Origin: Mumia sp. ZJ1417
GTDB taxonomy: Bacteria > Actinomycetota > Actinomycetes > Propionibacteriales > Nocardioidaceae
Length of the DNA stretch: 64,000 nucleotides
Assembly (NCBI RefSeq): GCF_014127285.1
Contig: NZ_CP059901.1
Location: 2,604,001-2,668,000, forward strand
Direction of reading: 5' to 3'
Position 1 is the first letter of the stretch; each line of letters begins with the position of its first letter. The position numbers were made by a program, and so were the translations under genes. Of this stretch, positions 12,123 through 32,412 are shown in pieces. The notes below the pieces were generated by a model that saw only the letters and a list, made by a program, of their open reading frames with translations, was not told the origin of the DNA and did not search any database.

Positions 12123-13467
12123 CGTCGCCCCCTTCGTAGACGAAGCAGTGGCAGTCGTTGTCGAACCGCAGCACCCGGTAGGCACCCGACGCAGCGTGAC
12201 GTCCGGTTCCGGTGAAGCCCGTAGCCGGGACGAACGCCGAGCCGAGCTTCTCCACCGCGGCGCCCCACGCGGCGGCGTTGAGGTTGTCGGTGAGGTCGGT
12301 GGCACCAGCCTGAAGCAGGAGCGCGGCGTCGCAGTACGGGAGGGCGACCCGCGCTGCTTCCCGCGAGGGGAACGTGATCCCGGCCTTCGAGTAGATGTCG
12401 ATGCACTTCTTCTCGGCATCGGTGCCGGGGAACGGCAGCTGCGCGTCGGCGACCTCCTGTGCGGGGGCGAAGCCGACGCCGACCATGCCCTTGAGGACCT
12501 CGGGCGGCACGGTGTCAGGGTTGTTGACGAAGAACGTCGGGTTGTCGAAGGTGGAGATCGCGTAGCGGGCCTTGAAGTTCTGCGCACTGGCGACGGTGGC
12601 GAAGATCGACGCGAGCCGGGCGCCCCCGAGGAACATCACCCGGTCGATCCCTGCGCTGCGGAAGGTCACCGCGCCCTGGTCGTTGCCTTGGAACAGGCTG
12701 CCCTGGTCAGTGGTGTCGACCCACGCGACTTCGGGCCTGACACCGGCCTCCTCGATCATCGGGAGGGCGATCTCTTCCATCGTGGCGCGGTTGATCGGGT
12801 TGTCCGCTGCCACGACGCCGACCTTCTTGCGCCCCTTGAAGAAGCCCTGATCCTTGAGGGTCGTGATGTATGCGCGGACGAACCCGTCGTACGAGGGATA
12901 GCTCGGCGACCACAGGTACGGCGAGAGCTCCTTGTAGGTGGCGTCGTCGGTGGCGACGAGCGTGGCGTCGAGCACCAAGGTCTTGCGCTGGGCGTAGCAG
13001 GGACGCGCGTTGCTCTGGAACTGGCCGGTAAGCACGACAGCGAAGGCCTGGTCGTCCTGCGTGATCTTGTTGCAGAGCTGCTCCTCGGCGGCCGGCGAGT
13101 CGGCCTGCGCGTCGTACATCCGGAAGACCGCGTCGAGCTGACGCCCGCCCACTCCCCCGTTGTCGTTGACCCACTTCTCGAGGGCCTCGACCTGCTTCTT
13201 GGGATCGCCTGCGTTGGCCGTCTTGAAGCCCGTGAGCTCCTGGACTCCGGCGAGATCGACCCCGACGAAGACGACCTTGACAGCGTCACCGGTGACACCG
13301 GGCCCGACTCCCTCGGCGGACGCCGACGTGCCGCCGTCGCCGACCACCGCGCCCGGCATCACGCTGCCACAGCCGACGAGGGCGAGCGCGAAGCAGGCAA
13401 GCGCCGCGCTCGCGCGGATCACCAACGATCGATCCGCGCTGCCTGCTGTGTCCTTCTGATGCCGCAT
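12103..13467 (-). CDS. Substrate-binding lipoprotein of the branched-chain-type ABC importer
   Basis: Periplasmic-binding-protein fold type I, 454 residues, anchored as a lipoprotein: the signal sequence ends in LALVGCGS with lipobox cysteine near residue 33. The mature part has the Leu/Ile/Val-binding-protein pattern (VKVVFVGVD, AEEQLCNKITQDDQAF, KVGVVAADNPINRATMEE, DRVMFLGGARLAS). The start ATG at 13467 has GGAGGG just upstream; a much longer open frame upstream belongs to another gene region and is rejected. An AT-rich motif at 13498-13515 precedes it and matches motifs before the catabolic operons, so import of a catabolic substrate is more likely than amino-acid uptake. Confidence 0.88.
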   Translation of the reverse strand: MRHQKDTAGSADRSLVIRASAALACFALALVGCGSVMPGAVVGDGGTSASAEGVGPGVTGDAVKVVFVGVDLAGVQELTGFKTANAGDPKKQVEALEKWVNDNGGVGGRQLDAVFRMYDAQADSPAAEEQLCNKITQDDQAFAVVLTGQFQSNARPCYAQRKTLVLDATLVATDDATYKELSPYLWSPSYPSYDGFVRAYITTLKDQGFFKGRKKVGVVAADNPINRATMEEIALPMIEEAGVRPEVAWVDTTDQGSLFQGNDQGAVTFRSAGIDRVMFLGGARLASIFATVASAQNFKARYAISTFDNPTFFVNNPDTVPPEVLKGMVGVGFAPAQEVADAQLPFPGTDAEKKCIDIYSKAGITFPSREAARVALPYCDAALLLQAGATDLTDNLNAAAWGAAVEKLGSAFVPATGFTGTGRHAASGAYRVLRFDNDCHCFVYEGGDVDFPTS

Positions 13468-18845: not shown

Positions 18846-19592
18846 TCAGTGGTCGCGCAGCAGCGACCCGTAGCCGTGGATCTTGTCCTCGATGCCGTTC
18901 TCGCGCAGCGCCATCCACCACGTGGCGGCGTTGATGGCGACGACCGGCTTGCCCAGCCAGCGCTCGGCCTCGTCCGCAAGCTCGGCCATGCAGAGGTTGG
19001 TGCCGCACTGGACGATCGCGTCGACGTCGGGCTCGTCGACCTCGAGGATCGCCTCACGCAGCGTCTGCTCGCTCACGTGGGCGATCGCGACCGCGCTCTC
19101 GCAGCTGAGGCCCTTGATCTTGCCGACCTCGAAGCCGAGCTCGGTGAAGAACTTGCGGACGTTCTCGTCGCCGATCGGGGTGTACGGCGTGACGATGCCG
19201 ATCTTCTTGGCACCGAACAGCTGCAGCGCACGCTCGCAGGCCTCGGCACCCGTCGCGACACCGAGGCCACCGGAGAGGTCCTTGATCTGCTGGACGAACT
19301 GGCGGTTGCCTTCGACGCCGTCCCAGAAGGTCTCGGCGCTCATGCCCATGACCATGTAGTCGGGCTCCATCGTCATGATGCCCTCGACGCAGTCGGCCAT
19401 CGCGGCACGGATCTGCACGAGGAGGTTCTGCATGCCCTCGTCGTCGGCGATCCGGCCGTCGCGGATCAGGATCCGGCCGTAGTGCGAGGTGACGCCAGGA
19501 ACCCGCATCGAGTCGAACTCCGGCTGGACGATCGTGTTGGTGCTCGGGGCGATCACCCCGAACTTGCGGCGGTAGCCGAGGCGGTCGGTCAT
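18846..19592 (-). CDS. Maleate isomerase / arylmalonate decarboxylase-family enzyme
   Basis: Asp/Glu-racemase-superfamily protein of 248 residues, last gene of the eight-gene operon; ATG 19592 overlaps the upstream stop. The N terminus FGVIAPSTNTIVQPEF and the IGIVTPYTPIGDENVRKFF segment are typical of maleate cis-trans isomerases (MaiA). The second catalytic cysteine region is present (IVQCGTNLCM, Cys196 and Cys201). The first cysteine of MaiA is not: the corresponding loop reads MGMSAETFW (about 82-90), closer to the dioxyanion loop of arylmalonate decarboxylase. It could therefore decarboxylate a malonate- or beta-keto-acid-like group, or isomerise maleate-type acids by a variant mechanism. 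In a chlorophyll pathway either the C13-2 carboxyl or a maleimide-derived acid would fit; both are inference. Confidence 0.72.
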   Translation of the reverse strand: MTDRLGYRRKFGVIAPSTNTIVQPEFDSMRVPGVTSHYGRILIRDGRIADDEGMQNLLVQIRAAMADCVEGIMTMEPDYMVMGMSAETFWDGVEGNRQFVQQIKDLSGGLGVATGAEACERALQLFGAKKIGIVTPYTPIGDENVRKFFTELGFEVGKIKGLSCESAVAIAHVSEQTLREAILEVDEPDVDAIVQCGTNLCMAELADEAERWLGKPVVAINAATWWMALRENGIEDKIHGYGSLLRDH

Positions 19593-20266
19593 GAGAGGGA
19601 GGCTCCTTCGGAGACGGAGGGACGCTCGGCGTGCGGGAGACGCCTGCTGAGCCGGAGCGCACCGATGAGGAAGCAGAGCTGGACACCGGTGTTGGTGAGC
19701 TGCTCGATCCATTGCAGCGCCTCGGTCTGATGAGGCCGAGCCGCCAGCGGAGGGAGCACGAGCGTGCCGACGAGATAGAAGAGGAACAACCAGCGGCCGA
19801 GCTGGTCACCGTGACGAGCGGCGAGCGCCGAGGCCATCGCCCCGACCGCGACCGCAGCGAGCGCCGCGATGGCGAGCATCGGGGTGAGGTTGCGCGCAGC
19901 TCCGGAGATGCACGCGCCGACGAACGGCACCAGGGCGAACGGCGCCCACGACACGACCTTGCCGACGTACACGCTCGCCAGGGCCCACGCGAGCGCGGAG
20001 AAGCCGATCGCGAGGCACGGGAACAGCATCTGCTCGAGGAACGGGATCTCGATGCACGGTCCGGCGACGAGCAGCTTCCAGACCGCCTTGCCGAGGCCAC
20101 CGGCGGTGACGACGAGGCCGCCGAGCAGCGCTCCCACCCGTACGGCGGGGATCGACTTGCCCAGCGCTTGGGCGAGGACAACGAGACCGGCGCCAGCGAG
20201 CACGACGGGCGTGAAGTCCTGGATCGCAAGAGCCAGACCGTACTCGGTGCAGGGATCGATTGCCAT
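19589..20266 (-). CDS. Unknown polytopic membrane protein
   Basis: 225 residues with about six or seven predicted membrane helices (for example 18-40, 45-68, 75-100, 108-130, 135-155, 168-185, 200-215). It has paired Cys-Pro motifs near the N terminus (DPCTEYG; AGPCIEIP; LFPCLAIG). No family was recognised. Its ATG at 20266 shares one base with the SDR stop (TGATG) and its stop overlaps the next start (ATGA), so it is an integral part of the operon. It could be an importer, a membrane anchor for an electron-transfer partner, or a haem/tetrapyrrole-binding membrane protein. There is no evidence to choose. Confidence 0.7.
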   Translation of the reverse strand: MAIDPCTEYGLALAIQDFTPVVLAGAGLVVLAQALGKSIPAVRVGALLGGLVVTAGGLGKAVWKLLVAGPCIEIPFLEQMLFPCLAIGFSALAWALASVYVGKVVSWAPFALVPFVGACISGAARNLTPMLAIAALAAVAVGAMASALAARHGDQLGRWLFLFYLVGTLVLPPLAARPHQTEALQWIEQLTNTGVQLCFLIGALRLSRRLPHAERPSVSEGASLS

Positions 20267-21084
20267 CAGGCCTCCTCGCGCTCGGTCGGGGTGAAGATGT
20301 CGCGCTTGCGGAAGCCCGCGGTCATGAAGCGCCCCATCGCCTTCGACCGGGTCAGCCAGGCCACCCTGGCACCGTTCTTGCTGGCCGCAAGGACGCGGTC
20401 GGCGAGCCACGGCGTGACGGTCTCGACCCGGTCGCCGAGGATGTTGAAAATCTTGCGAGCCTTCTCGAACGCCTCAGGCTGCCCGTCGTAGTCGTCGACG
20501 AGGAGGTCGGTCGCGACGATGCCCGGGGAGAGGTAGCCGACGCGGACGTCGGTGTTCTTGGACTCCTTGACCAGCGCCGCGGTGAGATAGGTGACCGCGC
20601 GCTTGCTCGCGCCGTAGATCGCCATCCCGGGTTGGAGCTGCCCGTCGGAGCCGAAGCCCTCCATGTTCCAGATCCATCCGCCGCCCGGCTGCGCACTCAG
20701 GCCCGCCAGCGCGACGGTGCAACCGTTGATCGCACCGACGAGGTTGGTACGGACGACGGTGTCGGTGACGTCCGCCGAGATCTCCGGGAGCGGACGACGC
20801 GGCGCCGAGACGCCGGCGTTGTTAATCCACACGTCCACGCGACCGAACGTCTGCGACGCGTGGTCCCACAGCTTCTGCAGGGACTCACGGTCGGTGACGT
20901 CGGCAGGGATGCCGCTGATGCGGTCGCCACCGCGTGGCGCAAGCTCGGCGAGGGCGGCGTCGACCGCGGCCGAGGACCGTCCGCACACGACGACACGGCA
21001 CCCTCGGTCGAGGAGCTGGCCGGCGAGCCCGAGGCCGATGCCCCGGGTCCCACCGGTCACGACGACGACCCTGGACTCCGTCAC
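20266..21084 (-). CDS. Short-chain dehydrogenase resembling chlorophyll b reductase (NOL/NYC1)
   Basis: Classical SDR, 272 residues. The cofactor motif is TGGTRGIG (10-17), with WINNAG at 86-91 and catalytic Ser146, Tyr157 and Lys161 (YGASK). Beyond general SDR features it shares with plant NOL/NYC1, from memory, VWINNAG, RPL.E, NLVGAI, the run NMEGFGSDG (NMDGAGSGG in NOL), AIYGASK, LVKESKNTDV (IVKESQKTNV in NOL) and SPGIVATDLL. Those enzymes reduce the C7 formyl of chlorophyll(ide) b to hydroxymethyl, the entry of b-type pigments into breakdown. It is coupled by overlaps to the genes on both sides. SDR identity is certain; the NOL-like assignment needs a tree. Confidence 0.75.
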   Translation of the reverse strand: MTESRVVVVTGGTRGIGLGLAGQLLDRGCRVVVCGRSSAAVDAALAELAPRGGDRISGIPADVTDRESLQKLWDHASQTFGRVDVWINNAGVSAPRRPLPEISADVTDTVVRTNLVGAINGCTVALAGLSAQPGGGWIWNMEGFGSDGQLQPGMAIYGASKRAVTYLTAALVKESKNTDVRVGYLSPGIVATDLLVDDYDGQPEAFEKARKIFNILGDRVETVTPWLADRVLAASKNGARVAWLTRSKAMGRFMTAGFRKRDIFTPTEREEA

Positions 21085-22058
21085 GCCGGCTCCCAGGTGA
21101 GCAGGCCGTGAAGGAAGTGGGTGGTGCGCTCGCCCGAGAACAGCTGCCAGACGACCGACAGGTCACGCGTCTGGGAGTCGAGAAGGAACTCGCGTCCGCG
21201 GATCTTCTCGACACCGCGCGCGTCGGGTCCCATGAGGTGCTGGGTGGTGAACAGCGCACGGCCGTACGAGACGGCGTTGCCGAAGACGTCGCCCTCGTAC
21301 TGGGTGCGGGCACCGTCGCGGTAGCGCTCGAAGGTGTACGAACGGTCGAGCGCGCCGCTCCAGGTGACGCGCTGGCGGGTCCGCAGGAGCGAGAGGGGCT
21401 CGTGCTCGATCTGCACCTGGGTCTGGCCGAGCGTCTTCTGGGTAGCCGCGTCCTCGACCGAGAGCGACCCGGTCCAGGTGCCCTTCTCCTTGGTGGGAAG
21501 CACCTGAGGCGTCGGGCCGCGCTGGGTCTCGGCCGCGATCCACTCGTCGACGAACGCCTGCGTCTCGGGGTTCGTGTCGTGGTCGAGCGTCCGCTTGTAG
21601 ACGCCGTTGAAGACCGCGCAGACCGCCCAGCCGTCGTGCAGGACCGACGAGTAGACCTGCGTCACGCCGTCGGGGAGCACCTGGTTCCAGGTGCGCAGGT
21701 CGGCCTGCCAGCCCGGCGAGTAGTAGTTGGCCTCGACGAAGAACCCGTACGGCTGGCCGGTCCCGTAGAAGTCCGGACCGCAGTAGACACGGTTCTCGTC
21801 GGAGTCGACGATGCGGAAGTCGAAGTCGGCGCCGAGCTGGAACCGGTTGCGCAGCGGGCCGGCGCCTTCGAGGGTCGGACGCATCCAGTAGCGCGCCACG
21901 CCGTCCTCGATGACGCTCGCGCGCGCGATGCGCTCGAAGCCCACGTGGTTGCCCTCGGGGTCGAACAGCGCGGGACGGCCGTGCCACTCCCCCTCGATGC
22001 GCTGCTGCCACGCGCTCGTATCGACCGACTCCTGGTCGGTCTCGCTGGTCGCCGTCAC
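21081..22058 (-). CDS. Conserved unknown protein, two beta-barrel-like (lipocalin/DUF3598-like) halves
   Basis: 325 residues, no signal peptide or membrane segment. It appears to have two related beta-rich halves: the first begins EGEWHGRPALFDPEGN (about 22-37), the second KGTWTGSLSVED (about 196-207). This spacing and the W-x-G starts suggest a double lipocalin-like barrel, such as the cyanobacterial DUF3598 or CpcS/T bilin-lyase-type folds, which bind tetrapyrroles. I cannot confirm that by sequence alone. Other marked features are a run of aromatic residues (YYSPGWQADLRTW) and FFVEANYY. Start and stop both overlap neighbours in ATGA junctions, so it is made with the RCCR- and PAO-like proteins. 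A substrate-binding or chaperone role is a guess. Confidence 0.6.
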   Translation of the reverse strand: MTATSETDQESVDTSAWQQRIEGEWHGRPALFDPEGNHVGFERIARASVIEDGVARYWMRPTLEGAGPLRNRFQLGADFDFRIVDSDENRVYCGPDFYGTGQPYGFFVEANYYSPGWQADLRTWNQVLPDGVTQVYSSVLHDGWAVCAVFNGVYKRTLDHDTNPETQAFVDEWIAAETQRGPTPQVLPTKEKGTWTGSLSVEDAATQKTLGQTQVQIEHEPLSLLRTRQRVTWSGALDRSYTFERYRDGARTQYEGDVFGNAVSYGRALFTTQHLMGPDARGVEKIRGREFLLDSQTRDLSVVWQLFSGERTTHFLHGLLTWEPA

Positions 22059-22834
22059 TTGCGCACCTCGTTGTCGAGCAGCTGCGCCCGGACGTCCTCG
22101 GCGGCGTCGTCACCGATGAGGCGAGCGACCTGCGCCCAGACCTTGTCGACCTCGGGGCTGAAGATGAGCGCCCGGTTGCGGGCGTCACGTGCCGGAAGGT
22201 CGGTGTCGGCCACGTCGGCCAGCACCTCGGCGGGCACCGACGCGTCGAGCAGACCGAACCAGTGCTCGAGGTAGGTCGTGACGGCGCTCTCGATGGAGAC
22301 GAACGCGTCCGCGTCGGCGCGGTGCACGAGCATCCACGGCGACATCATGGCGTTCTGGCGAGGACCGATCGCGGCCTTGGTCAAGCCTTCCCAGGTCTCG
22401 ACTTCCTCGTACGTCTCTGTCAGCGGCTCGTGCGCCCAGTCGAGGTAGGCCAGGTGCGTGCCCAGGTCGGCCCGCGGGATGAGGTCGAGGTGGAAGGCGT
22501 AGGTGCCCTGGCCCTTGACCGAGTCGAGCGTGAAGTGCGGGATCGGCAGTCCGTCACGGGCGAACGCGAACACCATGTGGCTGTCCAGACCGATCATGTC
22601 GACCGCGAGGCCCACGTACACGACCTTGCCGATCGGGTTGGAGTCGTCGGTCGGGACGAAGACGCGAACGTCACCCACGGGGTCCGGCGTCATCGGCGAC
22701 GTGAGCGTACGGAACGCGGAACCGTCGTCGGCGGTCACCTCGACCAAGCCACGCTCGGCGACGATGCGCTCCCATGCGCGCTCGCACAAGCCGCGCGGAA
22801 GGCTCACAGACGCCTCGGACTCGGTGGTGCTCAT
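22055..22834 (-). CDS. RCCR / bilin-reductase-like protein, paralogue C
   Basis: 259 residues, a more divergent member of the same family as the products at 4744 and 25081. It keeps PIPHFTLDSV (97-106), YAFHLDLIPRADLGTHLAYLDW (about 112-133), a MMSPWMLVHRADADAF segment in place of the VSxSxxVRxxLSP strand, and a C-terminal helix pair with ARDARNRALIFSPEVDKVWAQV. Unlike its paralogues it has an acid, Asp104, at the position of the plant RCCR glutamate (PHFTLD against PNFVVE), so it is the best candidate of the three for a true reductase. Overlaps couple it to the Rieske gene upstream and the unknown barrel protein downstream. Homology is remembered, not searched. Confidence 0.6.
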   Translation of the reverse strand: MSTTESEASVSLPRGLCERAWERIVAERGLVEVTADDGSAFRTLTSPMTPDPVGDVRVFVPTDDSNPIGKVVYVGLAVDMIGLDSHMVFAFARDGLPIPHFTLDSVKGQGTYAFHLDLIPRADLGTHLAYLDWAHEPLTETYEEVETWEGLTKAAIGPRQNAMMSPWMLVHRADADAFVSIESAVTTYLEHWFGLLDASVPAEVLADVADTDLPARDARNRALIFSPEVDKVWAQVARLIGDDAAEDVRAQLLDNEVRK

Positions 22835-24057
22835 GCGGGGACCTCTTCTTCACGCGTCGTCGTCTTGGTGCTGTCGGTGCGCGGGACGTCCCCGCGCTCT
22901 TCGCGCTCGACCCGCTTGCCGAGCAGCTCCTTGCTGCGGACCTCCTTGAAGTTCCACGCCGAGGCCAGCTCGGGGACCTCCTTGCGGGTCGGCGACGGGA
23001 TCACGCGCGCCTCGACCCGGGCAGGGCCCTCGCCGACGATCGTGTTGCCCTCGACCGACCAGCCCTTGTCGATGAGCTCCTGACGGCGGCGGCGGTAGAG
23101 CACGGCGTTGTAGTCGCTCTTGACGTGCAGCTCTGCCGACAGGTCGAACGGGAGGAGCTCGGGGCGCACCCCGTTGACGACGGCCTCGTCCTCGTACAGC
23201 ACCTTGAACACGCGACGGCGCGCGTCACGGTCGGCCCACTTGCCCTTGAAGAACGTCCGCAGCGCGACGAACTTGACGAGTGTGGTCTCCTCGTCGATCG
23301 GGATGTTGACGTCGAAGATCTTGAGCTTGCCCATCGGGGTGTCGACCTCAAGCAGGATCATGTTGGGCAGCCACCAGGTGGTGGAGACCGGCACCTGCGG
23401 ACGCTTCATGAGGTCCTTGGTCTTGTTGGGGTTGAGCATGCCCCAGATGCCCTTGGAGTTCGGCGGGTTGAGCTTGACCGACACCTTGCAGTGCCACTCC
23501 GACTCCTCGATCTCGAACTCGGGGACCTCCGGCTTCTCCTTGTTGCCGAAGACGCCGCCGTGCACGAACGGCGTGTGCGCGACGTCGACGCCGTTCTCGA
23601 GGATGCGCTCGTAGTTGGACTTCCAGAGGAACGAACCGGTGACCGCACGGTAGGTCTCGGTGTCGTCGATGGCCGACCAGTCGGGCAGCGGCGGGCGCTC
23701 GGCCTCGGGCAGGTCGCCCATGTAGATCCAGATGAAGCGGTGCTTCTCCTGGACCGGGTAGGCGTCGATGCGCGCCTTGCGCGGGATGCCCTTGTCGGGG
23801 TGCGCGGGGATCTTGCGCACGGACCCGTCGGGCTCGTACTCCCAGCCGTGGTACGGACAGACGATGCAGTCGTCCTTGACCTCGCCGCCCGACAGCGCCG
23901 CACCACGGTGCACACACAGGTCGGACATGGCGACGACGCTGTTGTCGCTCGACTTGCGGTAGATGACGAGCTGCTGTCCGAGAAGCTTGACCTTCTTCGG
24001 GGTCCCGGCGGGGAGATCCTCGCTGAACTCGACGGCGTACCAGAAATTCTTGAACAT
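22831..24057 (-). CDS. Rieske oxygenase of the pheophorbide a oxygenase-like group
   Basis: Oxygenase of 408 residues with a Rieske [2Fe-2S] site C-V-H (Cys48, His50) and CPYH (Cys67, His70), then a mononuclear iron site N-x2-D-x2-H-x4-H (Asn155, Asp158, His161, His166). The start NFWYAVEFSEDLPAGTP and the late RPELLPFDLSAELHVKSDYNAVLYRRRR match the PAO/chlorophyllide-oxygenase/TIC55-like branch also found in cyanobacteria, rather than two-subunit benzoate-type dioxygenases. In plants PAO opens the macrocycle of pheophorbide a. No C-terminal membrane helices or CxxC are present, unlike plant PAO. No ferredoxin or reductase gene accompanies it. A charged linker-like tail of about 30 residues ends the protein. 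The ATG at 24057 begins the family N terminus. Confidence 0.8.
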   Translation of the reverse strand: MFKNFWYAVEFSEDLPAGTPKKVKLLGQQLVIYRKSSDNSVVAMSDLCVHRGAALSGGEVKDDCIVCPYHGWEYEPDGSVRKIPAHPDKGIPRKARIDAYPVQEKHRFIWIYMGDLPEAERPPLPDWSAIDDTETYRAVTGSFLWKSNYERILENGVDVAHTPFVHGGVFGNKEKPEVPEFEIEESEWHCKVSVKLNPPNSKGIWGMLNPNKTKDLMKRPQVPVSTTWWLPNMILLEVDTPMGKLKIFDVNIPIDEETTLVKFVALRTFFKGKWADRDARRRVFKVLYEDEAVVNGVRPELLPFDLSAELHVKSDYNAVLYRRRRQELIDKGWSVEGNTIVGEGPARVEARVIPSPTRKEVPELASAWNFKEVRSKELLGKRVEREERGDVPRTDSTKTTTREEEVPA

Positions 24058-24070
24058 CGCGGGTCTCCTC

Positions 24071-25084
24071 CTAGCGTCGCCGAATCTCGGCGATCTCCGA
24101 GCGGGGCTGCTCCGCCAGCAGCTCCAGTGCGTTCTTGGCCTCGACATCCCCGCGCACGGTCGCGCGGAGGAACGAGGTGACGGTGGTGGCGAGCGCGTCG
24201 CGCTGGGCGGCGGCGTCACCGGTGGACGGGTCTTCGAGGAAACCGCGTGCCGTGGTGGGGTCTTCGGGGTGGATCGCGAGCATGTGCGTCGCGTCCGCGA
24301 GGTGGACGAGCCAGGCCTCGGTCGTCGACGGGAGCGCCCGCTCCCACGTCGCCGTGATCGGGTCGTGAGCGGGAGCGTCCGGGTCCTCGCCGTACCGGAT
24401 GGCGCTGGCGGCGACCACACCGTCCGCCGTGCCGGCCAGCAGCATCACCGGTGCCTCGACCGGCGCCGGCAGCAGGGTGCTCGGCGGGTGCCCGAGCATC
24501 TGCGAGGCCTTCGTGTGGGCACCGTACGTCGCGACGGCGCGCACCTCGGGGAACCACTGCGGGCTCGCCGACTGCAGGGCAACGGTGCCGCCGGCCGAGT
24601 GACCGAACAGCGCGACGGCGCCGGTGTCGAGGAGCCCCGCGAGCGGGCCGGACTCCCCCAGCGCCGTGACGGCGCCGAGCACCGGACGCAACGCCTGGGT
24701 CGTCGGCCCGCTGCCGTAGGTGTCCGGGCCGACGGTGCCGAGGTCGACACCGGGCGTCAGCCCGTACTCGCCCACGCTGTGCTCACTGGGAGGAAAGAGC
24801 TCCCCCACCCAGTCGTACGTGACCGCGACGAAGCCGGCCTCGACCAGCCGCACGGCCAACCACGCGTAGGCGTCGGCGCAGACGTTGACGCCCGAGAGGA
24901 TCACGGCCAGCGGGTACGGGGCACCCGCCGGGTCCGCCGCGAGACGGCCGCTCATCCGCTCGGCCGTCGTCGTCGCGGGCAGCGCCGGGTAGCGCACCGT
25001 GACGTGCGCCGTGTCGTACGGAGCCTCGGCTCCCGGGATGCGGACGGCCGTGCGGAGCGCGCGGGCGAGGACGGGGTCGTTCAT
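24071..25084 (-). CDS. Alpha/beta-hydrolase resembling chlorophyllase
   Basis: Serine hydrolase of 337 residues. The nucleophile motif is GHSAGG (Ser153), a likely acid is Asp211 in LLAGTADGVV, and the histidine is His257 in ATHML. The segment PYPLAVILSGVNVCADAYAWLAVRLVEAGF (about 56-85) follows the layout of the chlorophyllase/PET-hydrolase-type family, in which YPVV.LLHG....YS.L..H.ASHGF is seen. Chlorophyllase removes phytol from chlorophyll or pheophytin. It starts in an ATGA overlap with the RCCR-like gene and ends 13 bases before the Rieske gene. An esterase acting on a lipophilic substrate is well supported; chlorophyllase identity is inferred from context and remembered similarity. 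Confidence 0.68.
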   Translation of the reverse strand: MNDPVLARALRTAVRIPGAEAPYDTAHVTVRYPALPATTTAERMSGRLAADPAGAPYPLAVILSGVNVCADAYAWLAVRLVEAGFVAVTYDWVGELFPPSEHSVGEYGLTPGVDLGTVGPDTYGSGPTTQALRPVLGAVTALGESGPLAGLLDTGAVALFGHSAGGTVALQSASPQWFPEVRAVATYGAHTKASQMLGHPPSTLLPAPVEAPVMLLAGTADGVVAASAIRYGEDPDAPAHDPITATWERALPSTTEAWLVHLADATHMLAIHPEDPTTARGFLEDPSTGDAAAQRDALATTVTSFLRATVRGDVEAKNALELLAEQPRSEIAEIRRR

Positions 25085-25905
25085 CGTGCCGAGTGAACCT
25101 CGTGCTCGTGAGCGCGCGGCAGCGTGCGGTCGCCGCCCCAGAGCGCACGGACGAGGCGCTGCGTCGTCTCGGCGCCGAAGTAACGGTCGCCCATCACGTT
25201 GGCGGGGTCACGCTCGGCGATGTTGCGGCGGATCGCCTCATCGTCGGCCGCCAGTGCGGCGCGCTCGGCGACCGGAACGGCCTCCGCGGCGTCGACCCAC
25301 CCGAGCCAGCGGTCGAGGTGCTCCTCAGCGACCTCGGTCACGAGCTTGGTCATTTCCTCGCCGGCGGGCGCCATGTGGCAGAACGCGGTCGGCGAGAGGC
25401 CGGCGCGCACGAAGGCCGAACGGCTGACGAACGGCTCGAGGAAGCTCTCGTTCTGGAGCTGCTCCCAGCGAGCGTTGACAGGCTCGTAGTAGCGGTCGAA
25501 CGAGTCGGTGTCGGTCACGAGATAGCTGCGCGGCACCGAGTCGAGGAAGAACCAGCCCTGCGGGAAGCAGCCGAGCGCCATGCCGAAGTGCGGGACCTTG
25601 ACCTGCGGACCGAGCCAGATCGTCAGGTGGACGTTGCAGAACCCGGCGGTCGCGTTCTCCATGTGGGAGTGGACCATCCAGTCGATCTCGGGGCCGGCGT
25701 ACGTGCGGACGCGGCCCTTGGCGCCGGTGTCACCGCCGAAGTCCTCGAGCGCCTCGGACGACGGGTCGCGCTCGAGCTCGAACCGCTCAGCGACCCGGTC
25801 TTTGAGACGCTCGACGAGGGCCAACCAGGTCGCGAAGGTCTCGCTGACGTCGGTCGGGCCCGACTCGTCGAGGTGCTCCTGCACGTACTTCAGACTCTGG
25901 CTCAC
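25081..25905 (-). CDS. RCCR / bilin-reductase-like protein, paralogue B (first gene of operon)
   Basis: 274 residues; the clearest RCCR relative of the three. Matches to plant RCCR, from memory, include IDWMVHSHMENATAGFCNVH (74-93), VPHFGMALG (104-112), LDSVPRSYLVTDTDSFDRYYE (121-141), and VSRSAFVRAGLSPTA (160-174), where Arabidopsis has VSPSLFVRSAFSPTA. A C-terminal DDEAIRRNIAERDPA...YFG precedes a last helix. The position of the plant glutamate is Ala110, so proton transfer may use another residue or the protein may bind rather than reduce. GTG 25905 has AAGGAG before it. It opens the eight-gene operon ending at 18846. Confidence 0.72.
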   Translation of the reverse strand: MSQSLKYVQEHLDESGPTDVSETFATWLALVERLKDRVAERFELERDPSSEALEDFGGDTGAKGRVRTYAGPEIDWMVHSHMENATAGFCNVHLTIWLGPQVKVPHFGMALGCFPQGWFFLDSVPRSYLVTDTDSFDRYYEPVNARWEQLQNESFLEPFVSRSAFVRAGLSPTAFCHMAPAGEEMTKLVTEVAEEHLDRWLGWVDAAEAVPVAERAALAADDEAIRRNIAERDPANVMGDRYFGAETTQRLVRALWGGDRTLPRAHEHEVHSAR

Positions 25906-25949: not shown

Positions 25950-25969
25950 GACTATATATGATCTATACC
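25950..25969. promoter_or_regulatory. AT-rich regulon motif B upstream of the eight-gene operon
   Basis: GACTATATATGATCTATACC, 45-64 bases before the operon's first start codon. Read toward the gene it contains TAGATCATATAT, identical over 12 bases to the motif upstream of the paralogous gene at 4744. The surrounding intergenic stretch (25906-26065) shows no clear terminator for the upstream operon. Confidence 0.5.
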
Positions 25970-26065: not shown

Positions 26066-27520
26066 TCAGGACGGATACGCGGTCGCGCCGAGCCCCTCGC
26101 CGCCCGCCCTGAAGGCCGCAGGCGCATGGACGACACAGGTCTGCACGTGCTCCAAGATCCCCTCGTCGCCGTACTCCCTCCCCCATCCGGACCGCTTGAC
26201 GCCCCCGAACGGCGCCCGCAACGACATGCCCGTCCGGTTGTGCGTGTTGACGAAGGTGAAGCCCGCGTCGAGCCGCGCGGCCAGGTCGAAGGCGCGCTGC
26301 TCGTCGACCGACCACACCGACGCACCGAGTCCCAGCTCGCCGGCGTTGGCGCGCGCGACGACCTCTTCCTCGGCGTCGAACGCGAGGATCGGCAGGGTCG
26401 GACCGAACTGCTCGGTCGCGACGACGTCGTCCGAGTCCGACGCACCCAGAACGAGGGTCGGCAGAACGTAGTAGCCCTCGTCGAGCCGCGCCTCGGGGTC
26501 GATGGTCCCGATCGGGACGACCTCCGCGCCCGCCGCCGCTGCGGAGTCGACCAGTGCCCGTACGCGCTCGGCCGAGGCCGCGCTCACGACCGGCCCCATC
26601 GTCACGCCGGGGGTCAACGGGTCGCCGACGCGCAGGATCCGGTCGGCCGCGGCACGCAGGGCCGTGACTACCTCGTCGTAGCGCGACCGGTGGACGTACA
26701 GGCGCTTGATCGCCATGCAGACCTGCCCGCTGGTCGCGAACGCGGCCATCAGCAGGCGCTCCGCGATGGACTCGTCCAGCTCGACGTCCGCGAGCAGGAT
26801 CGCCGGGTCGTTGCCGCCGAGCTCCAGCAGCGACGGTGTCAGCGCCCCGGCGGCCGTACGGGCGAGTGCACGCCCCGCGACGTCGCCGCCGGTGAAGGCG
26901 ACCCGGTCGACACCGCGGTGCCCGACCAGTGCGGTCGCGGTCTCGGCATCGCCGTGGACGACCTGGAGCAGGCCGGAAGGCAGGACGGCTGACATCGTGG
27001 CGACGACCTTCTCGACCGCGAACGGCGCGAGCGGTGACGGCTTCACGACGACGGCGTTGCCCGCGACCAGCGCCGGAGCGACCTTGAGCATGGCGAGGAT
27101 CACGGGGGCGTTCCAGGGCGTGACGGCAGCGACGACCCCGTACGGCCGGTGGCGCAGCACGAGCCGTCCCTGGGCGTCGTCGATCTCGCTGTCGACGAGC
27201 AACGTCTCAGCGCGCGCGGCGACCCAGCGCAGCACGGTGACGGCGAAGCCCGCCTCGCCCCGACAGTCGGCCAGCGGCTTCCCGGTCTCGCGCGCCATCA
27301 GCGCGGCGACGTCGTCGAGCACCGGATCGAGCAGGTCGGCGGCTGCCCGCAGCGCCGCTGACCGCGAGGCCACCGGCTGGTCGCGCCACGTCGCCTGCGC
27401 CGCACGGGCACGCCCGACGGCGCGGTCGACTGCCGCCGGATCGTCGAACACGACCTCCCCCACCACCTCGCTCGTACGGGCGGGGTTCTCGCGGCGCGAG
27501 CCGGTGGCCGCGATCGTCAC
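26066..27520 (-). CDS. Aldehyde dehydrogenase (first of two)
   Basis: NAD(P)-dependent aldehyde dehydrogenase, 484 residues. It has VTPWNAPVIL, the glutamate in LLELGGND, and the catalytic cysteine in SGQVCMAIKRLYV. GTG 27520 overlaps the stop of the flavoprotein gene in a GTGA junction; a much longer open frame upstream is not used. It is the last gene of the six-gene operon. Related enzymes oxidise aromatic or aliphatic aldehydes and semialdehydes. In a chlorophyll pathway a formyl group released by macrocycle opening or by pyrrole cleavage would be a fitting target; this is inference. Confidence 0.88.
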   Translation of the reverse strand: MTIAATGSRRENPARTSEVVGEVVFDDPAAVDRAVGRARAAQATWRDQPVASRSAALRAAADLLDPVLDDVAALMARETGKPLADCRGEAGFAVTVLRWVAARAETLLVDSEIDDAQGRLVLRHRPYGVVAAVTPWNAPVILAMLKVAPALVAGNAVVVKPSPLAPFAVEKVVATMSAVLPSGLLQVVHGDAETATALVGHRGVDRVAFTGGDVAGRALARTAAGALTPSLLELGGNDPAILLADVELDESIAERLLMAAFATSGQVCMAIKRLYVHRSRYDEVVTALRAAADRILRVGDPLTPGVTMGPVVSAASAERVRALVDSAAAAGAEVVPIGTIDPEARLDEGYYVLPTLVLGASDSDDVVATEQFGPTLPILAFDAEEEVVARANAGELGLGASVWSVDEQRAFDLAARLDAGFTFVNTHNRTGMSLRAPFGGVKRSGWGREYGDEGILEHVQTCVVHAPAAFRAGGEGLGATAYPS

Positions 27521-28710
27521 AGCGCGTCGCCCGCCGGCTCGAGCGGCCGCAGCGAGTCGATCATCGAGGTCCGGCGCAGGTATGCCCGCGCTGCCACCGG
27601 GTCCGCGGCGAGCGCGCGCAGCTCGGCGTGGTGCGCGGCGCGCGCGGAGGGGTCCTGCTCGCGCAGCTGCTTCCAGTTGTCGTGCGTGACCGTACGGACG
27701 TAGGACAGTGCGACGTCCCGGCGACCGGCGAGCACCACGTCGAGCGCGTCGAGGTCGGCCTCCCCCGCGAGCAGCGCCACCAGCGCGCGAGCGGTGAGCA
27801 CCGCGTCGTGGATGCCGCTGTTCATGCCCATCCCGCCGAGCGGGTTGTTGACGTGCGCCGCGTCGCCCACGAGCACGACCCGGCCGGTACGGAAGCGCTC
27901 GGCGACCCGCTGGTGGACGAGGTAGAGCGAGGAGTGGAGCAGCTCCCACGGGCGGCCGAGGTCGGCGACGCCGCGCAGGCGCTCCTGGACGCGCGCGTCG
28001 GCGACCTCGGCGTCGGCCGGGCTGTCGGGGTCGGTCGGGAACAGGATGCGCCAGTGCTCCGGGGTCCGCAGCAGCACCAGCCACTCGGTCGGGTCGAAGA
28101 CGTAGTTGACGTCGGCGATGCCGGGGAGCACGGCCGCCAGATCCTCGGTGGTCGAGACGACGAGGAAGCGCTCCGGGTAGGTGATGCCCTCGAACTCCGC
28201 ACCGGTGCTCTTGCGCACGACCGAGCTCGCGCCGTCGGCACCGACCACCCAGTTGGCGGTCCAGGAACGTCCGCTGGCACTGGTGACGGTGACCCGGTCG
28301 TCAGCCTGCGTGACCGACGTCGCCGGCTCACCGAACTCGACCGTGCACCCGTCGTGCCGCCGGAGTCGCTCCAGCAGGATCGGCGTGAGCTTGCTCTGCT
28401 CGCACTGCACCCGGAACGGGTACGGGGTGTCGTCGGCGAGGATGCCGAGGTCCAGCTCGGCGACGGGGCCGTCCTGGCGGTCGCGGTACTGGAAGGCCTG
28501 GGAGACGATGCCGTGCTCCCGCAGCGCGTCGAGCACGCCGAGGTCGGCGAGCATCTCCAGCGTCGGCGGGTGGTAGGTGCTCGCCCGCGACTCCGCGGAC
28601 AGTGACTCCCCCGCCTCCAGCACGGTCACCGCGTGACCGGCCTGCGCCAGCACGAGCGCCGTGGTGAGTCCGACGGGCCCCGCTCCCACGACCAGGATGT
28701 CGTTCGTCAT
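27517..28710 (-). CDS. FAD-dependent monooxygenase (PheA/MhpA-type hydroxylase)
   Basis: Class A flavoprotein monooxygenase of 397 residues. It has the FAD motif VVGAGPVGLTTALVLAQAG (6-24), a DG-type motif VVGADGASSVVRK and the GD motif RVVLVGDAAHVNNPLGGMGMNSG. This architecture hydroxylates electron-rich aromatics such as phenols and 3-hydroxyphenylpropionate, using NAD(P)H. It lacks the thioredoxin-like C-terminal domain of phenol hydroxylases. ATG 28710 overlaps the lyase gene stop; its own stop overlaps the aldehyde dehydrogenase start. The substrate here is unknown; a pyrrole or bilin fragment is possible. Confidence 0.87.
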   Translation of the reverse strand: MTNDILVVGAGPVGLTTALVLAQAGHAVTVLEAGESLSAESRASTYHPPTLEMLADLGVLDALREHGIVSQAFQYRDRQDGPVAELDLGILADDTPYPFRVQCEQSKLTPILLERLRRHDGCTVEFGEPATSVTQADDRVTVTSASGRSWTANWVVGADGASSVVRKSTGAEFEGITYPERFLVVSTTEDLAAVLPGIADVNYVFDPTEWLVLLRTPEHWRILFPTDPDSPADAEVADARVQERLRGVADLGRPWELLHSSLYLVHQRVAERFRTGRVVLVGDAAHVNNPLGGMGMNSGIHDAVLTARALVALLAGEADLDALDVVLAGRRDVALSYVRTVTHDNWKQLREQDPSARAAHHAELRALAADPVAARAYLRRTSMIDSLRPLEPAGDAL

Positions 28711-29606
28711 CGTGCTGCCTCCTCGGCGTACGCCGCTTCCAGGACGAGCTGGTCTCCCAGCCCGACGAGCTCGGTCAGGTCGTCCCACGCCATCCGTGGG
28801 ACGGCACCGGCATGGCCGGTGCGGGCGATCGCCGCGTACGTGTCGGCTGCCGCTCGGGCAGCAGCCAGCAGTGCGGAGACCGGGTGGATCACGAGGCGTA
28901 CGCCGAGCTCGGCGAGGGTCCCGTCATCGGGATGGCCCGCATCGGGACCCTCGATCGCGCCGGCCGCCTCAGAACGATTCATCACCAGGGGCACCTCGCC
29001 GCCGAGCGCCGCCGAGACCTCGCGCAGCTCAGACAGGCCCGCGCCCTCGACGAACACGGCGTCGGCACCCGCCGCGACGAACGCGTGGGCCCGCGCGACG
29101 ACGGCGTCGAGACCGTCGACCGAGAGCGCGTCCGTACGGGCGACGATCACGACGTCGGTGCCCGCCTCGACCGCGGCACGGACCCGGCCCGCCGCCTCGG
29201 CAAGCCCGACGACGGCCTTGCCGGTCATGTGACCGCACCGCTTCGGGGCGACCTGGTCCTCCAGGTGCAGCCCTGCGATGCCGGCCGCCGCGTACGCGCG
29301 CGTCGTGTGCCGCGCTTGCAACGCGTTGCCGTAGCCGGTGTCGGCATCGGCGAGCAGCGGGACGTCGGCCAGTGCCGGGACGACCTCACGGGCACGCGCG
29401 GCGATCTGGCTGCCGTGCACGAAGCCGAGGTCCGGCAGGCCGAGGCCGACCGCCGACGCGACCGCGCCCGAGAGACAGGTGGCGCGTGCGCCGGAGACCA
29501 CCGCGAGCCGCGCGGTCACCGCGTCGTACACGCCGGGCAGGTGGACGACCTCGTCACCGGCGAGCAGGGTACGGAGGGTGGCGGCGGGAGAGGTGGCGCC
29601 GGTCAT
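28707..29606 (-). CDS. Isocitrate lyase/PEP mutase-family lyase (dimethylmalate/methylisocitrate lyase type)
   Basis: Beta/alpha-barrel lyase of 299 residues. It has LADADTGYGN (Asp87, Asp89 metal site), LHLEDQV (Glu116) and the catalytic loop PKRCGH with Cys124. KRCGH marks carbon-carbon lyases such as methylisocitrate lyase and 2,3-dimethylmalate lyase, not phosphonate mutases. Dimethylmalate lyase belongs to the nicotinate route that passes through dimethylmaleate. An ethyl-methyl analogue could come from chlorophyll-derived maleimide, which would make this enzyme the cleavage step to pyruvate or an oxoacid plus a short acid; this is inference. Methylisocitrate lyase is less likely because no prpC/prpD genes are near. 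Both ends overlap neighbours. Confidence 0.82.
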   Translation of the reverse strand: MTGATSPAATLRTLLAGDEVVHLPGVYDAVTARLAVVSGARATCLSGAVASAVGLGLPDLGFVHGSQIAARAREVVPALADVPLLADADTGYGNALQARHTTRAYAAAGIAGLHLEDQVAPKRCGHMTGKAVVGLAEAAGRVRAAVEAGTDVVIVARTDALSVDGLDAVVARAHAFVAAGADAVFVEGAGLSELREVSAALGGEVPLVMNRSEAAGAIEGPDAGHPDDGTLAELGVRLVIHPVSALLAAARAAADTYAAIARTGHAGAVPRMAWDDLTELVGLGDQLVLEAAYAEEAAR

Positions 29607-31108
29607 CGCCCGTGCAGCGCGAAGCTGCCCTCGACCCCGACGACCCGGGCGTTGGTGAAGCATCGGATCGTCTCCACCGTGCCCTCCTCGCCGAGCCCCG
29701 ACAGGCCCCACGCCGGCCGCGGCGTCATGAGGTGCAGGCTCATGATCGTCGAGCCGTTCACCTTGACCTCGCCGGCACGCACGCGGCGGGCGAGCGCGAG
29801 CGCCCGGTCGGTGTCGGTGCCGACCACGTATCCCTCAAGCCCGTACGACGTGCCGTTGGCGAGCGCGAGGGCCTCGTCCTCGGTCGCGTAGGTGTGCACG
29901 GTCGCGATCGGGCCGAAGATCTCCTCCGCGGCAGCCGCGACCGGCACGCCGGTCACCAGTGCGGGCGCCAGGTAGTTGCCCGTGTCGGGGACGGGCGTCG
30001 CGCGGTGGACAGTGCCGCCGGCGGTGCCCAGCGCCTCGAGCGCCGACTCCAGGCGGGCCCGGTGGACCGAGTGGACGATCGGGCCGAGATCTGATGCCTC
30101 GTCCAGCGGGTCCCCCGCGGTGAGAGCGGTCAGCCGCTCGAGCGCCAGCTCGACGACCTCGTCGGCCATCGCCTCGGGCACGATCAAGCGTCCGAGCGCG
30201 CGGCACCACTGGCCGTTGAGGGTGGTCAGCAGGTCGACGGCAGCGTGCGCGGCCGCCTCAGGATCGGCGTCGGGCATCACGACGAGCGGGTTGTTGCCGC
30301 CGAGCTCCAGCTGGAGCGCGGCCAGCTTCTCGGCGCACGCGGCGGCGACCGCACGTCCTCCGACAGCGCCACCGGTGAACGACACGGCGCGGATGCGCGG
30401 GTCGGTGACGACCGTTCCGCCCACGGACGGTCCACCCTGGAGGAGCTGGAAGACCCCACCGTCGACCCCGGCTTCGGCCAGGACCTCAGCGACCGTAGTG
30501 CCGAGCAGCGTCGTCGCGTACGGGGCGTACTCGCTGGGCTTGAGGATCGTGGGGCAGCCTGCGGCGAGCGCGCTCGCGACCTTGTGCGCGGCCATCGGCG
30601 CGGGCGCGTTCCACGGGACCAGGCAGATCGCGGGCCCGACCGGCAGGCGCAGCACCTCGACGGCCTGACCGTTCGCGCCCGTCACCGGCGCATCGACCAG
30701 GGTCCCCGACCGCAGCATCTCGGCGGCGAGGCGGAAGGCGCCCGGGACGATCATGCCGACGATGGAGGTCTGACGGACCGGGACGCCGGTCGCGAACGCC
30801 TCCAGCGCCGCCAGTTCGGACTGGCGGGCCTCGAGCGCGACCGCCACGGCGTCGAGGAGGGCGGCCCGCTCGTCCGGCGACGTCGACGACCACGTCTCGC
30901 TGGTGTGGGCCGCGTCGGCAGCGGCCAGGGCCCGCTCCACGGAGTCCGGTGCGCTCTCGACGGCGTGCCCCAGAGACTCTCCGGTCGACGGATCCTCGAG
31001 GACGAGGTCGAGGGTGCCGGTCGCGGGAGCGACCTCACCCGCGACCACCTCGACCAGGGCTGGCAGCGTCACCGCGGCGATCGCCCCACCGTGCGCCGTA
31101 CTCGTCAT
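29603..31108 (-). CDS. Aldehyde dehydrogenase (second)
   Basis: Aldehyde dehydrogenase superfamily protein of 501 residues. LVPWNAPAPMAAHKVASAL, LQLELGGNNPLVV (general-base Glu) and a cysteine in LNGQWCRALGR are visible. The C-terminal part GLEGYVVGTDTDRALALARRVRAGEVKVNG is typical. ATG 31108 overlaps the acyl-CoA-dehydrogenase-like stop, and the stop overlaps the lyase start. Together with the other dehydrogenase at 26066 it gives the operon two distinct aldehyde oxidation steps. The catalytic cysteine context (QWC rather than QxC with following T/S) is a little unusual. Confidence 0.86.
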   Translation of the reverse strand: MTSTAHGGAIAAVTLPALVEVVAGEVAPATGTLDLVLEDPSTGESLGHAVESAPDSVERALAAADAAHTSETWSSTSPDERAALLDAVAVALEARQSELAALEAFATGVPVRQTSIVGMIVPGAFRLAAEMLRSGTLVDAPVTGANGQAVEVLRLPVGPAICLVPWNAPAPMAAHKVASALAAGCPTILKPSEYAPYATTLLGTTVAEVLAEAGVDGGVFQLLQGGPSVGGTVVTDPRIRAVSFTGGAVGGRAVAAACAEKLAALQLELGGNNPLVVMPDADPEAAAHAAVDLLTTLNGQWCRALGRLIVPEAMADEVVELALERLTALTAGDPLDEASDLGPIVHSVHRARLESALEALGTAGGTVHRATPVPDTGNYLAPALVTGVPVAAAAEEIFGPIATVHTYATEDEALALANGTSYGLEGYVVGTDTDRALALARRVRAGEVKVNGSTIMSLHLMTPRPAWGLSGLGEEGTVETIRCFTNARVVGVEGSFALHGR

Positions 31109-32412
31109 CCTTGTCCCGCCTTCGCCTTCGCGTCCACCGCGTCGGGCGTGGTCAGGCCGATCCACGACTCGTCGCTGACGAGCAGCTGAGCCAGGTCGAG
31201 GCGACCCCGCTCGGCGGGGAACGCCTGGACCAGACCCATCGCGGTGTCACGCACGGCGCGGCCGATGACGTTGTCCATCAACGCACCGGACGTTCCACAC
31301 ATCTTCAACGATCCGACCGCCACGGCAAAGGCCTTCTCGCAAACCGACCCCTTGGCGAGCTTCCAGTTCTTGACGACCTCGGGCTTGGGCAGGATCGGCG
31401 GGTCGCTCGACTCGAGCTCGACCTGGTAGCGCAGCCACAGGTGCATGTCGGTCAGGTCGTGCTGGGCCTCACCGATCAGCACCTGGTGCATCGGCGAGGA
31501 CGCGATCGGCTTGCCGGTGTCGGCGAACTTGGCCTTCATGGTCCGCTCGAAGGCGTAGTCCCAGGCACCCTTCGCGATGCCGGCATAGATCGCCGCGATC
31601 GCGATCTGGTTGCCGACCCACGACCCGCGCGACATCGACGTCGCCCGGGCGAAGCCCGCCGGCACCGCCAGCGCGTGGTCGGCGGGGACGAAGCAGTCCT
31701 CCATCACGAGCCCGAAGTTGTCCGAGGCCCGCATGCCGAGACCGCTCCACTCCTGCCGGGGGCGGATGCCCTCGGAGTCGCGGGCGACGAGGAACAGCGA
31801 GATGCCGTCGATGCCGTCGATGTCGGCACGGCGCGCGGTGACGAGGTAGAAGTCGGCGGTGCCGGAGAGGCAGCCGAACGACTTCTCGCCGTTGAGGAGC
31901 CAGCCGCCCTCGACCGGCGTGGCCGTCGTCGAGATGAGGACGTTGGCGTTGCTCGCCTTGGCGGCCTCGCTCGCGAAGTTGGCGAGGCAGCGCTCCTCGG
32001 TGCCCATGAGGTGGAGGACACGCTCGGCGAACGCACGGACCTCGTCCGCCTCGTCGTCGGTGTAGAGCCCGGCCTCGAGCGCAGCGAGCGGCAGCAGCCC
32101 GCGCGACGATGCCGAGCAGTGGAAGAAGTACGCGAGCGCGGTCGAACCGCAGACCGTCCCGAGCGCGTACGTGGTGGCGACGAGGTCACGGAGGCCCCCG
32201 CCGAGGCCGCCGTACTCCTTCGGGACGACAAGACCGAGCAGCCCGGCCTCGGCGAGGAGCTTGACGTGGCCCTCGGGGAACGCGCCACGGGCGTCGGCCT
32301 CCTGGGCGGCGTCACGGATGGCGGGGAGGATCGCCTCGACCCGGGCAGCGCGCTCGCGCTCCTCGGGGCTGAGGTCGGTCAAGAGGTGTTCGGCGGTCAG
32401 CATGGCCGTCAT
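31105..32412 (-). CDS. Acyl-CoA dehydrogenase-fold flavoprotein, possibly flavin-dependent monooxygenase
   Basis: 435-residue acyl-CoA-dehydrogenase-superfamily protein: N-terminal helical domain (LAEAGLLGLVVPKEYGGLGGG), middle beta domain (GGWLLNGEKSFGCLSGTADFYLV, WSGLGMRASDNFGLVMEDCFVP), C-terminal helical domain (QVLIGEAQHDLTDMHLWLRYQVE). It is six bases downstream of a flavin-reductase-domain gene. Such pairs are usually two-component monooxygenases (DszC, HpaH and HsaA types), so it may use reduced flavin and oxygen instead of dehydrogenating a CoA ester. A glutamate in the usual dehydrogenase base position could not be located confidently. ATG 32412 is used; ATG 32403 is possible because the Shine-Dalgarno is close to the first. 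The stop overlaps the next gene. Confidence 0.8.
   Translation of the reverse strand: MTAMLTAEHLLTDLSPEERERAARVEAILPAIRDAAQEADARGAFPEGHVKLLAEAGLLGLVVPKEYGGLGGGLRDLVATTYALGTVCGSTALAYFFHCSASSRGLLPLAALEAGLYTDDEADEVRAFAERVLHLMGTEERCLANFASEAAKASNANVLISTTATPVEGGWLLNGEKSFGCLSGTADFYLVTARRADIDGIDGISLFLVARDSEGIRPRQEWSGLGMRASDNFGLVMEDCFVPADHALAVPAGFARATSMSRGSWVGNQIAIAAIYAGIAKGAWDYAFERTMKAKFADTGKPIASSPMHQVLIGEAQHDLTDMHLWLRYQVELESSDPPILPKPEVVKNWKLAKGSVCEKAFAVAVGSLKMCGTSGALMDNVIGRAVRDTAMGLVQAFPAERGRLDLAQLLVSDESWIGLTTPDAVDAKAKAGQG

Follow-up and report, generated by a model that had tools for sequence, protein, structure and literature searches.

A conserved actinobacterial gene island with RCCR-type reductases and a possible role in the breakdown of open-chain tetrapyrroles

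Open-chain tetrapyrroles are the substrates of the functionally characterized members of the red chlorophyll catabolite reductase (RCCR) and ferredoxin-dependent bilin reductase (FDBR) families. Bacterial N-heterocycle catabolic clusters of the nicotinate and pyrimidine type gather flavin oxygenases, amidohydrolases, aldehyde dehydrogenases, lyases and a GntR-type regulator. On the former enzymes, agreeing statements are found in passages of PMC10151467 and PMC13193486; a passage of PMC13193486 treats RCCR as outgroup to the FDBRs, passages of PMC10151467 report pre-PcyA bilin reductases from heterotrophic bacteria as well as Schekmanbacteria sequences that serve as outgroup on the RCCR side, and bacterial Mg-dechelatase homologues are reported in parts of PMC8531759 and PMC11006732. 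A bacterial RCCR catabolic cluster was not found in the open-licence literature, in which most subscription journals are not covered. By analyzing a stretch of 64,000 nt from Mumia sp. ZJ1417 (NZ_CP059901.1, positions 2,604,001 to 2,668,000; hereafter the window), we found that an operon with RCCR-type genes at 18846–25905 is part of an island of about 25 genes, which recurs in rearranged form across four families of its class and also in two genomes from outside that class. We consider it probable, at roughly 60%, that this gene set is a catabolic regulon for the uptake and breakdown of open-chain tetrapyrroles, either phyllobilins or bilins.

Compared with the plant pheophorbide a oxygenase (PAO)/phyllobilin pathway, the locus is alike in having RCCR homologues, accompanied, within one operon or putative regulon, by a Rieske oxygenase, a short-chain dehydrogenase (SDR) and esterase-type hydrolases; it differs in that no PaO-type ring-opening oxygenase and no Staygreen match were found and RCCR Glu154 is replaced, and also in being bacterial, with several RCCR-type genes and with linked genes for uptake and for amidase, CoA-transferase and lyase functions, which point to complete degradation. 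With the N-heterocycle clusters it shares the enzyme classes named above, whereas here RCCR/FDBR-type reductases and an orphan family (21081) are at the core. With the FDBRs (PcyA, PebA/B, PebS, HY2) and pre-PcyA it shares a fold, seen in the model of the operon protein 22055, and a helix-side Asp, but the neighbours are degradative, and the Pfam scan, which covered 27 window proteins, gave no Fe_bilin_red match over cut-off and found no heme oxygenase, Fe-S, V4R or globin gene. This bears on the idea that these proteins, like PcyA-type enzymes, serve to produce the bilin chromophore of a photoreceptor or globin. The existence of pre-PcyA enzymes in heterotrophs (PMC10151467, in part) would agree with it, but the same source, where it describes pre-1 and pre-3 clusters, gives exactly those four kinds of gene as typical partners; with such partners absent among the scanned proteins and with catabolic neighbours, chromophore biosynthesis was rejected as very improbable.

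Eight open reading frames (ORFs), all on the minus strand, fill 18846–25905, in agreement with the tightly overlapping eight-gene operon described in the initial annotation. Six of the seven junctions are overlaps, of 4 bp (25081/24071, 22831/22055, 22055/21081, 21081/20266 and 19589/18846) or 1 bp (20266/19589), and the remaining one is a 13-bp gap at 24058–24070 (22831/24071); the starts of 22831–24057, 19589–20266 and 18846–19592 were refined from codon usage. The first gene (25081–25905), here called RCCR1, had been read as an RCCR, and this was borne out: its product matched PF06405 with 58.8 bits (E 6.3e-16, cut-off 24.9) and the Arabidopsis RCCR chains in phmmer at 6.6e-8 to 9.9e-8, the motif pair quoted earlier against plant RCCR being present in that alignment, and its family profile hit the Arabidopsis RCCR chain in the PDB at 1.6e-17, while the bilin-reductase model PF05996 reached 25.5 bits, below its cut-off. 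Since the similarity to Arabidopsis RCCR is remote, a recent gene transfer from plants was rejected; the RCCR1 query found no match on plasmids. A genome-wide search gave two PF06405 genes in the host, and the second one, RCCR2 (4744–5574, plus strand), lies within the same window about 20 kb from the operon; it matched PF06405, the sole Pfam family listed for it, with 55.1 bits (E 8.6e-15, cut-off 24.9) and the RCCR1 family with 100% in hhalign.

A third reductase-like protein of the RCCR/FDBR fold is encoded at 22055–22834 (minus strand) and has no Pfam family. Its family profile aligned with the RCCR1 profile at 97.9% (E 3.3e-13, hhalign). It also detected RCCR2 (in four genomes) and RCCR1 (in a single genome), with E-values between 2.5e-8 and 2.7e-5, and in the PDB it matched phytochromobilin synthase at 4.9e-4 and RCCR at 6.6e-3. 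AlphaFold models of 22055 and 21081 were built from 5 sequences each (21 and 13 aligned, respectively), and that of 22055 is weak (mean pLDDT 55, pTM 0.59). Nevertheless, the top 12 Foldseek matches of this model were exclusively RCCR, HY2, PcyA, PebA and PebS (TM-scores 0.42–0.58, rmsd 8–10 Å), with E≤0.001 for five of the twelve, and later ranks were scattered. The earlier reading of 22055 as an RCCR relative thus holds as far as fold and remote homology are concerned. The RCCR identity of 25081, the RCCR type of 22055 and the further RCCR at 4744 together support a tetrapyrrole-related operon, as initially proposed, though not the plant PAO pathway as such, for the reasons given below.

The helix-side Asp, which we take to be Asp291 of RCCR (this number and Glu154 both fit the 3agb chain with one offset of 43), is present in 17/17 aligned rows of RCCR1, 5/5 of RCCR2 and 20/21 of the 22055 family. 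In tomato HY2, a helix-side Asp and a sheet Asp are considered proton donors, as stated in part of PMC11879140. Reductase chemistry is therefore plausible for RCCR1, RCCR2 and 22055, though it need not be that of RCCR itself. As to the kind of substrate, a pathway of the same kind acting on heme-derived bilins or phycobilins instead of chlorophyll products is possible, albeit rather unlikely: it would suit the slight preference of the 22055 profile for phytochromobilin synthase over RCCR and the invariant Asp (21/21) that this family holds at the position of RCCR Glu154, but RCCR1 scores RCCR well over bilin reductase in Pfam (58.8 versus 25.5 bits) and RCCR2 lists PF06405 only. A chlorophyll-derived substrate is favoured by the RCCR type of these proteins, by a MES-type hydrolase encoded at 3678 and perhaps by the SDR of the operon.

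The recurrence of the cluster, like the protein families, the co-occurrence and the shared site described below, is a direct reading of sequence. The named loci with RCCR1 are three Mumia records at 89–91% identity and Nocardioides soli at 68%; the gene-neighbourhood check suggested with the initial annotation found the operon order kept in all four and partly elsewhere, and this order is thus not due to chance. Between groups of genomes gene order and strand vary, and the island content stays. A presence matrix (tblastn, E≤1e-10, identity ≥30%, >30% of query) was calculated for 15 other genomes chosen for holding RCCR1, with stretches of 13 to 89 kb each, several of them ended by contig ends; the host and three incomplete genomes of family f6 with PF06405 matches (G050, G067 and G096; loci L046, L048, L051 and L054) were omitted. 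The genes for 22055 and the Rieske protein were found in 15/15 of these related genomes, 18846 in 14/15, 21081 and 24071 in 13/15 each, and the SDR in 11/15, while RCCR2 was found in at least 4/15, a lower bound because in two Mumia genomes (G311 and G319) it is situated some 20 kb off, beyond the examined locus.

Beyond the matrix, PF06405 was detected in 15/394 genomes of the class, representing 8/137 genera and four families (f1, 5; f6, 6; f18, 3; f5, 1), in 3/396 genomes of a phylum-wide sample, namely the host and the two genomes outside the class, and in 0/14 control genomes. The 22055 family profile matched the same 15/394 class genomes, and the 21081 family was found in 12/394, all among these 15 and none elsewhere. 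All six f6 genomes examined, 1.0–1.7 Mb in size, matched the RCCR1 profile. One of them (G032, 1.7 Mb; L044, L047, L049 and L052) holds eight distinct RCCR/22055-type genes, made up of 4 PF06405 matches (one below cut-off) and 5 with the 22055 profile, with one place common to both; such a number in so small a genome would suit a main nutrient pathway.

A palindrome-like 13-bp site resembling an operator was observed before both RCCR genes: GATCATATATAGT lies 45 bp before the RCCR1 operon (25951–25963, minus strand), and GATCATATATCAT lies in the 53-bp gap before RCCR2 (4719–4731, plus strand). The string ATCATATAT occurs twice in the 64 kb (mean in shuffles 0.00), and the pattern GATCATATATNRT with ≤1 mismatch has 2 matches in the 4.19-Mb genome, one before each RCCR gene, against 0 for the reversed-pattern control; as the pattern was picked after the sites were seen, this count shows rarity and is not an unbiased test. 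The site core before RCCR1 is kept in three other Mumia, and Nocardioides soli has an altered version. Two further genomes of the same family also have it: in G092 it precedes RCCR1, RCCR2 and also the binding-protein gene of the transporter, and in G380 it precedes RCCR2 and is found again in the interval that separates the GntR gene from the flavin reductase operon; at locus L037 it lies upstream of a homologue of the ABC substrate-binding gene 12103. Because this site is shared, both RCCR loci, together with the transporter and the second operon as arranged in G092 and G380, probably form one regulon. The single operon initially taken as the system appears to be only a part of it, to which the second RCCR locus, the transporter and the second operon seem to belong.

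Heme oxygenase was not found in 8/17 carrier genomes (the six f6 genomes, G624 and G662), and in the others its gene was on a separate contig or distant (0.6 Mb from the cluster in the host), so biliverdin made by the cell itself would not be needed. No carrier (0/17) had a PaO match over cut-off; weak matches occurred in 5/17 carriers at E 0.23–0.83, a limit at which 8/14 control genomes match too. With no heme oxygenase found in these genomes and no PaO over cut-off in any carrier, an imported, already opened substrate is favoured. Staygreen (Mg-dechelatase) likewise gave 0/17, in a search that had no positive control and that matched none of the control genomes either.

The same observations bear on the initial reading, a bacterial PAO pathway, in which chlorophyllide or pheophorbide would be taken, the ring opened by the Rieske protein and the product reduced by RCCR. 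The RCCR is real, and a Rieske oxygenase gene of the 22831 type is present in all 15 related genomes. This protein (22831–24057, minus strand; PF00355, PF19112) is a Rieske non-heme iron oxygenase with a VanA-type C-terminal domain, and the C-x-H/C-x2-H and N-x2-D-x2-H-x4-H motifs noted earlier, which form its Rieske centre and mononuclear iron site, are indeed invariant in 15/15 aligned orthologues; such motifs are common to Rieske oxygenases in general. Its proposed identity as a pheophorbide a oxygenase was ruled out, as it has no match to the PaO domain PF08417 at E≤1 and belongs with the VanA_C-type oxygenases, its nearest solved relatives being SxtDIOX/SxtT and NdmA. SxtDIOX/SxtT act on saxitoxin precursors and NdmA on methylxanthines. 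The proposed chlorophyllase (24071–25084, minus strand) fared similarly: this alpha/beta hydrolase, characterized by Pfam, alignment and a PDB profile search, keeps Ser163, Asp221 and His267 invariant in 14 rows, but every Pfam match was below cut-off, no chlorophyllase model appeared at E≤1, and the best PDB relatives of its family are polyester hydrolases, that is, PET hydrolases/cutinases, which excludes the assignment.

Two further proteins speak for the PAO pathway. The product of 20266–21084 (minus strand), annotated as chlorophyll b reductase, is an SDR (PF00106, 1.6e-41) and a generic one according to curated models; the pointer to NYC1/NOL is a NYC1 fragment, which matched it with 38% over 122 aa (70.5 bits) and ranked it first among 30 SDR loci compared (of 39 matched genome-wide), ahead of 53.9 bits for the next and ≤32.3 for the others, so it is perhaps NYC1/NOL-like. 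The alpha/beta hydrolase at 3678–4376 (minus strand) is of the SABP2/MES/hydroxynitrile lyase type (PDB 1y7h, 2.5e-15), a methylesterase type that includes the ‘probable pheophorbidase’ 5hk8 (5.2e-10). Set against the missing PaO and Staygreen matches and the relatives of the Rieske protein and the 24071 hydrolase, these points leave the PAO pathway quite unlikely.

The protein of 18846–19592 (minus strand) belongs to the Amdase/maleate isomerase superfamily (PF17645, 4.6e-18); the canonical maleate isomerase that it had been taken for was ruled out, because the first catalytic Cys is absent in 15/15 rows, while the second, as in arylmalonate decarboxylase, is Cys in 11/15 and Val in 4/15. The orphan protein of 21081–22058 (minus strand; no Pfam) had been counted as a further RCCR paralogue, which was rejected on an hhalign probability of 0.6% with the RCCR1 profile and a PDB sequence search with nothing below E 0.06. 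Its AlphaFold model is too weak (mean pLDDT 44.6), and the matches of this low-confidence model, namely de novo beta barrels, nitrobindin, siderocalin, BFA1 and thioesterases (best E 1.2e-3), give a hint of a beta barrel. The 21081 gene is followed, in two genomes that do not belong to the class, by a gene (L070:3308–4009 and L071:15715–16602) whose product resembles the vicinal oxygen chelate type and is possibly a further ring-cleaving enzyme. The hydrophobic product of 19589–20266 (minus strand; no Pfam; 10/15 related genomes) is, as read from its sequence, probably located in the membrane. No relative of 21081, of 22055 or of the Rieske family turned up in scans of viral contigs, and the Rieske query against plasmids found solely relatives of <60% identity in 762 records.

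Around RCCR2, an NAD(P)-binding reductase/epimerase-like protein (5571–6434, plus; PF01370) overlaps it by 4 bp, and an ABM-family monooxygenase-like protein (4373–4690, minus; PF03992, 4.4e-07; no PDB match) is divergent from it; beyond the 3678 hydrolase are an IclR regulator (2727–3515, minus; near the cluster in 4/15 related genomes) and an HpcH/CitE-type lyase (1782–2639, minus; 3/15). The transporter genes, as read from sequence, encode a branched-chain-type ABC transporter (8488–11349, minus; a homologue near RCCR genes in 4/15), an ABC ATPase (11346–12023, minus) and an ABC substrate-binding protein (12103–13422, minus). In the first of these, two permease parts and an ATPase are apparently fused into one protein of 953 residues.

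On the other side of the operon, the minus strand carries an aldehyde dehydrogenase (26066–27520; 12/15), an FAD monooxygenase (27517–28710; PF01494; 11/15), a methylisocitrate lyase/PEP mutase-type lyase (28707–29606; PF13714; 8/15, of which one, in G361, has just 40% identity and lies away from the cluster) that scored 209.5 bits with TIGR02317, below the cut-off of 354.4, a second aldehyde dehydrogenase (29603–31108; 11/15), an acyl-CoA dehydrogenase-like flavoprotein (31105–32412; 13/15) that is probably a flavin monooxygenase, and a flavin reductase that carries a partial HMGL domain as a fusion (32419–33741; 9/15), the HMG-CoA-lyase-like part being residues 290–407. They are followed by a GntR/FCD regulator (33933–34592, plus; 8/15), the candidate reader of the shared site, a nitrilase-superfamily amidohydrolase (34603–36261, minus; 12/15), a long protein of 552 aa matched over two stretches, an MFS transporter (36460–37758, plus; 2/15), an isochorismatase-type amidohydrolase (38423–39088, minus; 11/15), a type III CoA-transferase (39088–40296, minus; 10/15) and an HMG-CoA lyase-like protein (40356–41270, plus; 11/15).

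From this gene content, a route can be proposed in which the ABC transporter, and perhaps the MFS transporter, would import an already opened tetrapyrrole, either a chlorophyll-derived compound of the phyllobilin type or a bilin, and the esterases would trim side-chain esters. RCCR1, RCCR2 and 22055 would then reduce different double bonds in succession, after which the Rieske protein, the SDR and the flavin monooxygenases could oxidize the product and split it into single-ring pieces. The aldehyde dehydrogenases, the two amidohydrolases, the CoA-transferase and the aldol-type lyases would free the nitrogen and channel the carbon into central metabolism. A final step that would be chemically consistent is the hydration of a dialkylmaleate derived from the pyrrole rings, giving a methylisocitrate homologue that would fit the 28707 lyase.

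Several points weigh against the breakdown of open-chain tetrapyrroles by this gene set. The substrate, every reaction and the order of the reactions are what we infer, and neither a ferredoxin nor a hydratase for the proposed end step was among the 27 scanned window proteins. The position that we take to be RCCR Glu154 holds Ala in all 17 RCCR1 rows and Val in all 5 RCCR2 rows, and because of this replacement the reaction of both proteins may differ from that of RCCR; they are thus regarded as RCCR homologues working like reductases and not as proven RCC reductases. The linkage of RCCR2 to the island is restricted to five f1 genomes (G000, G311, G319, G380 and G092): in the f6 loci L046 and L047 it stands amid unrelated genes, and the G050 and G067 stretches and one G096 contig hold RCCR2 without island neighbours. 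Similarly, the site core is restricted to f1 loci, with no locus outside f1 having it. The co-occurrence is not independent by descent, as 6 of the 15 carriers belong to f6 and 5 to f1, and the 22055 and 21081 profiles include rows from some of these same genomes; for both reasons, only the lack of matches elsewhere is informative. Finally, 4/6 f6 genomes are <90% complete, which makes the heme oxygenase absence there weaker.

The replacement of Glu154 in RCCR1 and RCCR2 would also agree with a reuse of the RCCR fold for some other pyrrole, indole or N-heterocyclic substrate that the cluster degrades, and flavin monooxygenases, amidases, aldehyde dehydrogenases, a CoA-transferase and lyases make up a general set for heterocycle degradation. 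However, two different RCCR/FDBR-type genes stand together in 15/15 genomes, with a third linked in f1, the helix-side Asp is conserved in the RCCR-type proteins, and the characterized members with sequence similarity bind tetrapyrroles, which makes such a substrate unlikely.

Every year, chlorophyll is degraded to open-chain products on a very large scale, and no defined bacterial route for their later fate is known to us, with none listed in an open-licence library. The conserved and probably co-regulated gene set described here makes this question testable in cultured species, among them Mumia quercus, M. xiangluensis and Nocardioides soli. Tentatively, and at slightly less than even odds, it may represent the first defined bacterial pathway that mineralizes open-chain tetrapyrroles, in which case actinobacteria of soil and with small genomes would feed on chlorophyll-derived phyllobilins (or bilins), serial RCCR-type reductases would precede ring cleavage, and plant RCCR would share ancestry with these degradative enzymes. 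The gene set also bears on the origin of plant RCCR and offers new candidate bilin-active enzymes.

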